Positions 385 through 2,840 of a stretch of 34,374 nucleotides of DNA are shown piece after piece. This stretch comes from Verrucomicrobiales bacterium (GTDB taxonomy: Bacteria; Verrucomicrobiota; Verrucomicrobiia; Verrucomicrobiales; DEV007), in the NCBI GenBank assembly GCA_029213065.1, contig JARGPH010000041.1, positions 11,013 to 45,386 of the forward strand, given 5' to 3'. Under the pieces are notes generated by a model. That model was given only the letters and a program-made list of their open reading frames with translations, did no database searches and was not told the DNA's origin. Each line of letters begins with the position of its first letter. Positions within the stretch are counted from its first letter, which is position 1. Both the position numbers and the translations under genes were made by a program.

Positions 385-675
385 ATGCGTCCGTTCCTCA
401 TTTGTCTTTCACCTGCGATTCTCGGGTTTGTTTTAGTTCTCGCCGTAGCCCTCGGTGATCGCGCCTCTGACGGGCTCATCGTAGTGGCGATGTATCTGTT
501 CGGGCTGGGAGCGCTCATTTCCGGAGGCTGTGTCGCTCGAAAAATCGTGTTGAGCTCCCTTGACCCAGCCTGGTGGAAATGGACCGCGGCCGTTCTCGCT
601 TTCATCGGTGTCGCAGCTGCTTATTTCGCGATGACGATGGGCGGCTGTTGTGGTTTGGTTATGGCGACTCAATAG
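385..675 (+). CDS. Small three-helix membrane protein, unknown function
   Basis: This 96-residue protein begins at the ATG that directly precedes its first hydrophobic stretch (MRPFLICLSPAILGF). An in-frame ATG at 334 would add an unconvincing 17-residue leader. Three membrane helices are visible, at about residues 3-23, 33-53 and 67-88. The last ends in a Gly/Cys-rich turn (MGGCCG). It lies 12 bases upstream of the radical SAM gene, so the two could be co-transcribed. I recognise no family, and the assignment rests on the hydrophobic pattern and the spacing. Confidence 0.5.
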   Translation: MRPFLICLSPAILGFVLVLAVALGDRASDGLIVVAMYLFGLGALISGGCVARKIVLSSLDPAWWKWTAAVLAFIGVAAAYFAMTMGGCCGLVMATQ

Positions 676-687
676 AACTGACTTTCC

Positions 688-2085
688 ATGCCTCCTACCA
701 GTTCACTTCTTAAGAAAACGACCAGCTACTGCGCCCGTTGCCGTGAGTCGGTTCCGGGTGAGGTCGAGTCGCGCACCACCTCGGGCGGAGAGGAAGTCTG
801 GCTGCGAAAGCAATGTCCTGCCTGCGGGGAAAGTGAAACGAAGCTCAGCTCCGACGCCCGTTTTTACTGGCTCTCGGAGGGACAACGTGATCCGGAGGCC
901 TCTGCCTGCGGAGCGGGATGTGGCTGTGCGAGTCCGGCTTCGGGCGAACAAATTGGTTTTCTCGGCGGGAACGCTTTGCGGGAAATTCCGACGCTGGAAT
1001 CACAAGTGCGTCCCGTCGATGTCATGTCGACCTGCCTCGCGCTCATTGAGATCGTGGACTCCTGTAATCTGACTTGTCCGACCTGCTTCGCGGATTCTCC
1101 TCCGGGGACGGGGGATCAGGTCGATGCGGTTCCGCTGGAGGAGCTGAAAGCGCGCATTCAGGGGGTGATTGACCGAAAGGGAAAGATCGAGATTCTGCAG
1201 ATGTCAGGCGGCGAGCCGACCTTGCACCCGCAGTTTTTTGAACTGATTCGCTGGTGTCAGGAAAACAAGGAGATCGACTACGTTCTCGTGAACTCGAATG
1301 GGGTGCGGCTCGCGGGAGACAAAGCCTTTGGCGAGGAACTCGCTGCACTCGTTGAATACGGGCATTTCCAGTTCTATCTCCAGTATGACGGTCCTGACAG
1401 TGCCGCCGAAAAGGTCCTTCGCGGTGCCGATCTCGGGAAGATGAAGCGCCGTGCCATTGAGCGGGCGGGGGAGTTGGGGATTCCTATGACTTTGGCGATG
1501 ACGGTGATTCCCGAGAACCTTGGTCATCTCTGGGAAACGGTGGCGCTGGGGCTTTCGTTTGATCATGTCCGCGGGGTTGCCTTTCAGCCCATGTTCGGGA
1601 CGGGGCGCACGCATAAAGCGGGACAAGCCGCTTCACGGCTCAATGTTGCGGATATCATTGTTGGATTGATAGAGCAGTCGAACGGCGGAGTGAGAGCCGA
1701 TGATTTCACCCCGCTTCCCTGTGGCGATCCGAATTGTGCGACAATAGGGTATTTGCTCAAGATGGAGGACGAGGTGCGTTCGATCAGTGACTTCGTTGAT
1801 TTCGGAACCCTGCAGGGATTTCTCAGTGACCGGGTCCGCTACCGCCTCGAAGATCTCATCAAGTGCGGGTGTGAGTCGGAGCCTCTTGGCGAGCTTCTCC
1901 ACGAGTTCGAGATGGATGAGAAGAATACTTTTCGCCTTTTTATCAAACCGTTCATGGATGGGGAGGATTGGGACGAAGACCGGATTGATCGCTGCTGCAC
2001 TCATGTGATTCGTCCGGACGGAAAGCTGGATTCATTCTGCCGCTACTACTTGAACGGTGGTGGCAAAGCCTACCAAAGTGCTTGA
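688..2085 (+). CDS. Radical SAM enzyme of the MJ0619/tetraether synthase (Tes)-like type
   Basis: This is a 465-residue iron-sulfur enzyme. The radical SAM CX3CX2C motif is CNLTCPTC (C126, C130, C133), with the SAM-binding turn MSGGEPT near residue 172. An N-terminal CxxC pair of pairs (C15/C18 and C43/C46) looks like a rubredoxin-type metal site. Further cysteines occur in CGAGCGC (74-80), PLPCGDPNC (342-350), CGC (393-395) and CCTHV...FC (436-451). This layout resembles the archaeal family first annotated as pterin methyltransferase and later shown to join lipid tails (Tes: several FeS clusters plus a rubredoxin-like iron). Family membership is inferred from these motifs; the substrate here is unknown. 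The stop codon overlaps the start of the Lgt-like gene, which suggests a membrane-lipid role. Other radical SAM C-C bond-forming activities remain possible. Confidence 0.75.
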   Translation: MPPTSSLLKKTTSYCARCRESVPGEVESRTTSGGEEVWLRKQCPACGESETKLSSDARFYWLSEGQRDPEASACGAGCGCASPASGEQIGFLGGNALREIPTLESQVRPVDVMSTCLALIEIVDSCNLTCPTCFADSPPGTGDQVDAVPLEELKARIQGVIDRKGKIEILQMSGGEPTLHPQFFELIRWCQENKEIDYVLVNSNGVRLAGDKAFGEELAALVEYGHFQFYLQYDGPDSAAEKVLRGADLGKMKRRAIERAGELGIPMTLAMTVIPENLGHLWETVALGLSFDHVRGVAFQPMFGTGRTHKAGQAASRLNVADIIVGLIEQSNGGVRADDFTPLPCGDPNCATIGYLLKMEDEVRSISDFVDFGTLQGFLSDRVRYRLEDLIKCGCESEPLGELLHEFEMDEKNTFRLFIKPFMDGEDWDEDRIDRCCTHVIRPDGKLDSFCRYYLNGGGKAYQSA

Positions 2086-2840
2086 TGGCGGCGCTGAAGG
2101 TGGATTGGGCGGAACGCGCCTCGGCCGGGAGCGTTTACACGCTGATTACGATTGTGGGCCTGACGCTGGGCGGCTGGCTCTGGTCGAGACGATTCAGGAG
2201 CGAGTCATGTTCCTTTGCGGTGTTTATCGGAGCGATTGCGGGAGCCTACCTCGGGGCGAAGTTGCTCTACCTCGCCGCGGAGGGGTGGATGCACTACGGA
2301 ACTGACCTCTGGCTCTATCAACTGGCGGCGGGGAAAACGATTGTGGGCGCTTTGTTAGGAGGCTACGGAGGCGTTGAAATTGCGAAGAAGCTGATCGGAT
2401 ACAGCAAGCCGACGGGGGACTGGTTCGCGGTCGGTGTTCCGCTGAGCATTGCGGCGGGGAGGCTGGGGTGTCTGCGCTATGGCTGTTGTCCCGGAAAAGT
2501 GTGTGCGGAGCCTGACTGGCTCACGATCACGGATCGCGCGGGCGTCGAGCGATGGCCGGCGGTTCCGCTCGAACTCGGTTTTAACCTCCTGTTCGTCGCG
2601 ATGATTTTGCCTCTCGTGATGAGGCGAAAGGTTTTAGAACGCTCGCCTCTCGCGGGGCAGCTTTTTCATCTTTACCTGGTCACATACGGGATCTTTCGAT
2701 TCTGGCACGAGTTTCATCGCGAGACACCGACCTTGTTCTTCGGCCTGACGGGGTATCAGTTTGGCGCGGTTGGATTGATTGCCCTTGGGGTGGTTCGTGG
2801 GATTTCCCGCGCGAGAGGGGCTTTGGGATCGTTGGTGTGA
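2085..2840 (+). CDS. Divergent prolipoprotein diacylglyceryl transferase (Lgt)-like membrane protein
   Basis: This is a 251-residue polytopic membrane protein with about seven helices. The Lgt signature region reads GRLGCLRYGCCPG (about residues 124-136) instead of the usual GR(I/L)GNF.N.E.., so the Asn and Glu of true Lgt are replaced by cysteines. A C-terminal YGIFRFWHEFHRE retains the Arg and Glu of the Lgt RF..E..R motif. The ATG at 2085 shares its A with the upstream TGA (2083-2085), so translation is probably coupled to the radical SAM gene. True Lgt moves diacylglyceryl from phosphatidylglycerol to lipoprotein cysteine. This variant may act on another lipid or acceptor; that is inference. 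It is unlikely to be the housekeeping lgt because the signature is altered. Confidence 0.75.
   Translation: MAALKVDWAERASAGSVYTLITIVGLTLGGWLWSRRFRSESCSFAVFIGAIAGAYLGAKLLYLAAEGWMHYGTDLWLYQLAAGKTIVGALLGGYGGVEIAKKLIGYSKPTGDWFAVGVPLSIAAGRLGCLRYGCCPGKVCAEPDWLTITDRAGVERWPAVPLELGFNLLFVAMILPLVMRRKVLERSPLAGQLFHLYLVTYGIFRFWHEFHRETPTLFFGLTGYQFGAVGLIALGVVRGISRARGALGSLV

Follow-up and report, generated by a model that had tools for sequence, protein, structure and literature searches.

The closest described counterparts of the two enzymes considered here are the tetraether synthase Tes, or GDGT-MAS (MJ0619, NF045702; PDB 7tol, 7tom), and Lgt (PF01790, TIGR00544; PDB 5azb). Met439 and Tyr459 of Tes are reported to be invariant in 1000 archaeal homologues, and the Tes variants Y459F/L and M439A are reported to remain active (PMC9433317). 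Bacterial tetraether synthase homologues number in the hundreds (456 in PMC8941075), and their role is unconfirmed, but they are taken as a guide to which organisms produce membrane-spanning lipids (PMC11868695). For Lgt, mutants of His103, Asn146 and Glu151 are reported to be inactive in E. coli (PMC8689077, PMC4728403). A trio in which relatives of both enzymes are accompanied by a small membrane protein is not described, by title and abstract, among the matches listed for open-licence PMC papers.

Such a trio, all on the plus strand, is present in the window, a stretch of 34,374 nts from a Verrucomicrobiales bacterium (contig JARGPH010000041.1, 11013-45386). The first gene (385..675) encodes a 96 aa protein that has three hydrophobic segments and whose tail reads MGGCCGLVMATQ; it belongs to the unit and was absent from the original prediction. 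The codons for its tail cysteines, C88 and C89, are at 646..651 (tail ...MTMGGCCGLVMATQ), and the C88 column is nearly invariant in an 11-row alignment. The second gene (688..2085) encodes a 465 aa Tes/TrsS-like radical SAM enzyme, recognised by Pfam, NCBIfam, alignment and a structure model, whose [4Fe-4S] site CNLTCPTC (1063..1086) has its three cysteines invariant in 36 sequences. The third (2085..2840) encodes a 251 aa Lgt-like membrane enzyme, recognised by Pfam, alignment and a structure model, which carries the motif GRLGCLRYGCCPG; its altered Lgt signature, RLGCLRYGCCPG, is at 2460..2495. The TGA of the radical SAM gene (2083-2085) and the ATG of the Lgt-like gene (2085-2087) overlap by 1 base, and the reading frames, the motifs and this overlap are as first described. 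The reading favoured here, with a probability of about 40%, is that the cassette is a dedicated membrane-protein modification unit, with the tail cysteine of the small protein as acceptor, lipid transfer by the Lgt-like protein and a radical step by the Tes-like one. Just 5′ of the cassette a gene for a DUF116-polyprenyl synthetase fusion comes to its end (1-137 of the window; 9404-11149 of L017). It was considered as a member of the unit and rejected as too local, being upstream in eight loci, its own (L017) and those of seven close relatives.

The structure model of the radical SAM enzyme (pLDDT 79.7) matches GDGT-MAS 7tom with a Z of 39.1, 384 residues being aligned at an rmsd of 2.8 Å. The next structural family is MoaA, at Z 18.9, and the peptide maturases SuiB and SkfB are at Z 17–18. 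Pfam recognises a radical SAM domain (PF04055, 71.4 bits) and a zinc ribbon (PF23545, 37.4 bits), and the cysteines comprise C126-x3-C130-x2-C133, C15xxC18...C43xxC46 and several further ones. The whole-length fold and the radical SAM site are shared with Tes, as are, by alignment, the rubredoxin-like N-terminus and the C-terminal cysteines. Where Tes has its N-terminal cluster site (C73, C77, C80 and a His), C74, C78 and C80 are present in the window enzyme but are not all invariant in the 36 sequences; residues 66–103, in the region of the N-terminal auxiliary [4Fe-4S] cluster of Tes, are modelled with a pLDDT under 50. The Tes-like fold of the original prediction is borne out. Its placement of the enzyme within the Tes family holds for the whole-length fold, but not for the curated cut-off (NF045702 gives 150.7 bits against 450) or for the two residues reported to be invariant. 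Met439 corresponds to K420 and Tyr459 to V440, and this Lys and Val are themselves invariant in 36 relatives. Because Y459F/L and M439A Tes are active, K420 and V440 mark a failed Tes membership and are not proof of another reaction. From its modelled fold, the enzyme may join lipid alkyl tails.

The same fold can be taken as favouring bulk lipid modification, in which the radical SAM enzyme would join or alter phospholipid tails, the Lgt-like protein would alter head groups and the small protein would be an accessory or a scaffold. The invariant Lys and Val at the two Tes positions count against this, though with the proviso that Tes mutants there are active. Another alternative is RiPP-like: the radical SAM enzyme would act on the small protein, for instance by a thioether or C-C link in the tail, the Lgt-like protein would lipidate that tail, and signal peptidase II could release a short lipopeptide. 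Features of the enzyme speak against this. Pfam finds no SPASM or recognition domain in it, NCBIfam peptide-maturase families match, among the best 25 of 44 hits, weakly and over the radical SAM core alone, and SuiB and SkfB, as given above, are far below the lipid enzyme in structural likeness.

The best NCBIfam match of the enzyme is the TrsS radical SAM (seleno)protein, NF045646, at 208.6 bits against a cut-off of 490. Higher scores, though still short of that cut-off, are reached by relatives from Mycolicibacterium and haloarchaeal plasmids (335.5 and 352.5 bits in the two that were scanned), and these adjoin a methyltransferase gene rather than an Lgt-like one; however, the Lgt-linked radical SAM protein of Persicobacter also reaches 327.6 bits. 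Selenocysteine was rejected for the two flagged stops that were inspected: an in-frame TGA in one genome (G260) is an ordinary stop, and the end of the ORF in another (G320) says the same. Six PHROGs families match the enzyme, all of them generic ones for radical SAM or Fe-S proteins.

The Lgt layout originally proposed for the third protein is upheld by a score of 76.8 bits with PF01790, for which the gathering score is 24.9, and by the fold match of its model (pLDDT 92.8) to 5azb, with Z 13.4, rmsd 4.5 and 218 residues aligned; the next match is at Z 6.2. With TIGR00544, the model for Lgt, it reaches 31.0 bits against a cut-off of 118.9, and a separate, better-scoring Lgt (211.5 bits) is encoded elsewhere in the same genome. 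The counterparts of Lgt Tyr26, Arg143, Tyr235, Arg239, Glu243 and Arg246 are the same in a hand-mapped alignment, whereas His103 is replaced by Val (V87), Asn146 by Cys (C129) and Glu151 by Cys (C134). The residue at the Glu202 position is not kept. C129, C134 and C135 are each present in 73 of 73 aligned sequences, R126 (Arg143) also in 73, Y201 (Tyr235) in 72 and R205 (Arg239) in 71. In 40 sequences no His occurs in the GK(S/T)(I/V)xG stretch that takes the place of His103. Judged by residues mapped with the accounts in PMC8689077 and PMC4728403, the protein retains those for the phosphatidylglycerol headgroup, a point that would suit bulk lipid modification too, and its modelled fold suggests that it may transfer a glycerolipid.

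The cysteines of the Lgt-like and small proteins might, instead, form a thiol relay or a metal site serving the radical SAM enzyme. The three invariant cysteines in Verrucomicrobiota Lgt-like proteins and the many in the radical SAM enzyme are in keeping with this, as is the proximity of CcdA and a disulfide oxidoreductase to a Mycolicibacterium plasmid relative of the latter. A redox or metal role is nevertheless very unlikely, as the lipid-site Arg, Tyr and Glu of Lgt, for which a relay would have no use, are likewise wholly or almost wholly invariant, and other lineages lack the CC pair. Elsewhere in the collection, an Lgt-family paralogue with GRVGCFFGGCCYG is encoded at 6631-7587 of L154 (G005:C28), on a contig other than that of the cassette, and the Cys-type Lgt signature may accordingly be wider than this cassette.

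The two enzymes strictly co-occur. The radical SAM gene is present in 15 of 56 genomes, its own included, and the Cys-type Lgt-like gene is found in the same 15. Comparison of genome lists for 239 sampled genomes of the order places both in exactly the same 61, as is to be expected of the functional pair that had been predicted. In 54 of the 61 they are on one contig within ~5 kb (from tables read by eye), and in six (G320, G356, G375, G390, G416 and G443) on different contigs, which may be due to assembly breaks; the single contig of G389 has them 333 kb apart. The set of loci studied in detail comprises 80 of 162 relatives from a contig scan, nearly all of them Verrucomicrobiota, and with the window's own locus numbers 81. 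Carriers include Roseibacillus persicicus KCTC 12988, R. ishigakijimensis, Haloferula and Chthoniobacter flavus Ellin428. An Lgt-like ORF is downstream of the radical SAM gene and on the same strand in 72 of the 80, so that the conservation of adjacency which the original prediction had proposed to check is found across genomes. As to the other eight, six of the contigs end within ~1.1 kb of the radical SAM gene and two (L054 and L106) have longer flanks yet no such ORF. Clustering of neighbour families, which misses some members, recovers the radical SAM protein in 73 and the Lgt-like protein in 57 of the 81 loci, and no other family in more than 12; those minor families that were inspected proved to be opposite-strand frames or synteny of close relatives and were rejected as parts of the unit. 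That 15 of 56 genomes carry the radical SAM gene, and that the Lgt-like motif cysteines are invariant (73/73), argues that the cassette is not a chance arrangement. A viral origin was rejected (a scan of viral contigs gave seven pattern matches with no relative among them, and PHROGs has no match for the Lgt-like or small protein). Nothing points to a known defence system either, the PADLOC output being limited to a weak match of two viperin models to the radical SAM core.

The small protein evolves fast. Searches of Pfam, NCBIfam, PHROGs and PADLOC, at the limits used, give no match for the 96 aa window protein. Of the 12 genomes of the same genus that carry the radical SAM gene, the window's own included, 10 have an upstream homologue of the small protein; in the other two, the sequence starts inside the gene (G028) or the upstream protein is more divergent (G023). 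Upstream ORFs were chosen in the 81 loci, blind to cysteines, as those ending near the radical SAM start and having at least two hydrophobic segments. Directly upstream of the radical SAM gene such an ORF is present in 70 loci, and all 70 of the encoded proteins have a Cys 5–15 residues from the C-terminus. Other 11-residue windows of the same proteins hold a Cys in 22%, and in a small control a tail Cys is found in four of 22 TM ORFs away from the cassette. The tail cysteine is conserved. The residue preceding it is Gly in 55 of the 70, a count that favours Gly as, where there are several tail cysteines, the one after a Gly was taken first. BLAST detects only 282 of 2415 pairs. The stretch beyond the cysteine is 4–14 residues long in the 70, and the tail, the Cys excepted, varies. 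A strict lipobox is [LVI][ASTVI][GAS]C. It is matched by only four of the 70 tails; the Cys of these proteins is near the C-terminus and after the last helix. Basic residues (K+R) average 2.72 in the loop between helices 2 and 3 against 0.78 in that between 1 and 2, the former loop being the richer in 52 of 64 parsed proteins (seven are equal and five have less), and the median distance from the last K/R to the tail Cys is 24 residues, about one membrane span. From this charge bias and spacing, the tail Cys should sit at the outer face.

The existence of this protein bears on the alternatives. Bulk lipid modification gives no account of its divergence, its fixed tail Cys or its several copies, and is considered unlikely; the bulk synthesis of membrane-spanning lipids, as originally suggested, is not supported in that form, since it leaves a divergent small protein with a fixed tail Cys in the unit unexplained. 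Divergent, duplicated small genes beside a radical SAM enzyme, and the short stretch after the Cys, are what would be expected for a RiPP-like system, and lipidated RiPPs made via the lipoprotein pathway have been reported (PMC12636315). However, the tail is variable apart from the Cys, a peptide precursor needs no two further helices and some copies have ~70 residues after the Cys, which leaves the RiPP-like alternative doubtful.

Deviations from the usual arrangement are of several sorts. In four loci with no such upstream ORF (L067, L077, L102 and L105) a tail-cysteine gene lies instead between the genes of the two enzymes, that of L105 with its Cys as the third residue from the end, and the L042 sequence begins inside the radical SAM gene. 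Six of the 81 (L049, L056, L093, L094, L096 and L109) have no tail-cysteine gene in the stretch scanned; the nearest candidate in L096 ends without a cysteine. With a stricter non-overlap filter, a tail Cys is present in 60 of 78 non-Lgt TM ORFs near cassettes and absent in 18, several of which are paralogue-like (L053, L055, L096) and others unrelated neighbours; L076 and L105 are scored as lacking it solely because their Cys is nearer the end than the range scored.

Some loci have extra copies: two to four tail-cysteine proteins are encoded in at least 14 of the 81. In Chthoniobacter flavus (L078) a Cys follows the last helix in four proteins, one being 287 aa long with many helices and one having 32 residues past the Cys. 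One copy in Roseibacillus persicicus (L070) has ~70 residues past the Cys, and a tandem paralogue at that locus lacks the tail Cys. In the small-protein paralogues at L070 11957-12508 and L072 9704-10192 a long acidic, proline-containing stretch follows the tail Cys, as if the latter anchored a periplasmic domain. The window-type family, searched for in 56 genomes, has 16 copies in 11 enzyme-bearing genomes with the Cys kept in all 16, including one on a separate contig (G005:C18); the count leaves out five weak matches in 583–601-aa frames of other genomes. The only strong copy from a genome without the enzymes, that of G029, reads Ala at the Cys position, a suggestive result. A second family is found at 13 places in 10 of 239 genomes, always with a Cys after the last helix. 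Nine of these genomes hold the enzymes; the tenth, G383, keeps the Cys without a detectable radical SAM or Lgt-like gene and speaks against a strict rule tying the tail Cys to the enzymes.

Trio-like sets also occur in Actinomycetota, in one Bacteroidota record and in distant Verrucomicrobiota, tblastn against plasmids having led there in part. Lgt-like, small 3-TM and radical SAM genes are together in Mycobacterium avium pS2b, M. branderi pJCM12687 and Nonomuraea gerenzanensis, and the actinobacterial small proteins end GxCTG(L/I)NP... In Persicobacter psychrovividus three genes overlap one after the next, those for an Lgt-like protein, a radical SAM protein and a 59-aa protein of two helices that ends TGICGSLLS. 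Among the distant Verrucomicrobiota the trio is present in L132, L133 and L134; L135–L137 have no Lgt-like match and were excluded when trios were counted. Across lineages the Lgt-like proteins have in common the Cys at the Asn146 position, whereas the following CC pair is missing in those of the actinobacteria, Persicobacter and L134. A 28-row radical SAM tree has one branch that can split Lgt-linked from methyltransferase-linked rows (91/85, short of the tool's mark of 95), but when it is rooted on L135–L137 the methyltransferase-linked rows nest among the Lgt-linked ones, and the Lgt-linked radical SAM proteins are therefore not supported as one clade. The methyltransferase-linked genes are on a Mycolicibacterium vanbaalenii plasmid (L129, 3296-8336) and haloarchaeal plasmids (L130, L131), in the order radical SAM and then methyltransferase, and may be nearer to TrsS itself; in L129 a second radical SAM gene is also close by, as are CcdA and a disulfide oxidoreductase. 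The Lgt-like protein at L134 5302-6861 has an extra N-terminal half of ~270 aa with no Pfam match. Mycobacterial plasmid cassettes are near an IS110 transposase and an Xre/RES pair (L125) or IS200/IS605-TnpB genes (L126), and their spread by mobile elements is possible.

Under the favoured reading of a modification unit, the small protein would span the membrane with three helices, the last of which would lead, on the charge bias, from cytoplasm to periplasm, and this would put the tail Cys at the outer face, where the Cys of an N-terminal lipobox would sit. The Lgt-like enzyme could then transfer a glyceryl-lipid to this Cys by a changed thiol chemistry, in which cysteines would replace Asn146 and Glu151 and there would be no His103. 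The Tes-like enzyme, by its fold, might act on the lipid tails of the anchor or of its donor lipid and there make a C-C or C-S bond; alternatively, its target could be the tail of the small protein itself. The acceptor role, the lipid, and the order and chemistry of the steps are in this scheme inferred. An acceptor with its modifying enzymes fits the co-inheritance of the enzymes, the divergent and duplicated small proteins and the one fixed residue at a lipobox-like place, and of the three roles originally offered for the pair the attachment of lipid to an unusual acceptor fits best. Against it, a radical SAM enzyme should be cytoplasmic, and the tail cysteine is predicted to be outside. The four lipobox fits in 70, G383, the cysteine-less paralogues and the six loci without a tail-cysteine gene also count against it, as do the lineage-limited CC pair and the similar Cys motif in the unlinked G005 paralogue. 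A bolder version, in which a Cys at the periplasmic end of a C-terminal TM helix is loaded by a His-less, cysteine-type Lgt as a separate lipidation pathway, and the radical enzyme joins the anchor tails to a lipid of the opposite leaflet to give a membrane-spanning protein anchor, is very unlikely.

The trio looks like a so far undescribed bacterial route by which a lipid, or some other radical-made change, is placed on a membrane protein. If so, protein lipidation would be widened beyond N-terminal lipoboxes. For one clade of Tes homologues there are now partners that strictly co-occur and a candidate acceptor protein, so that its function can be tested directly, and caution is due before every Tes homologue is taken as a tetraether maker: the window enzyme differs from Tes in co-occurring with Lgt-like and small-protein partners. 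A conserved hydrophobic stretch plus a Cys, proposed as lipid acceptor, is also characteristic of MYXO-CTERM and similar C-terminal sorting signals. The cassette differs from these in the position of the Cys, beyond the last helix in a 3-TM protein, and in the partners, an Lgt-like protein and a radical SAM enzyme.
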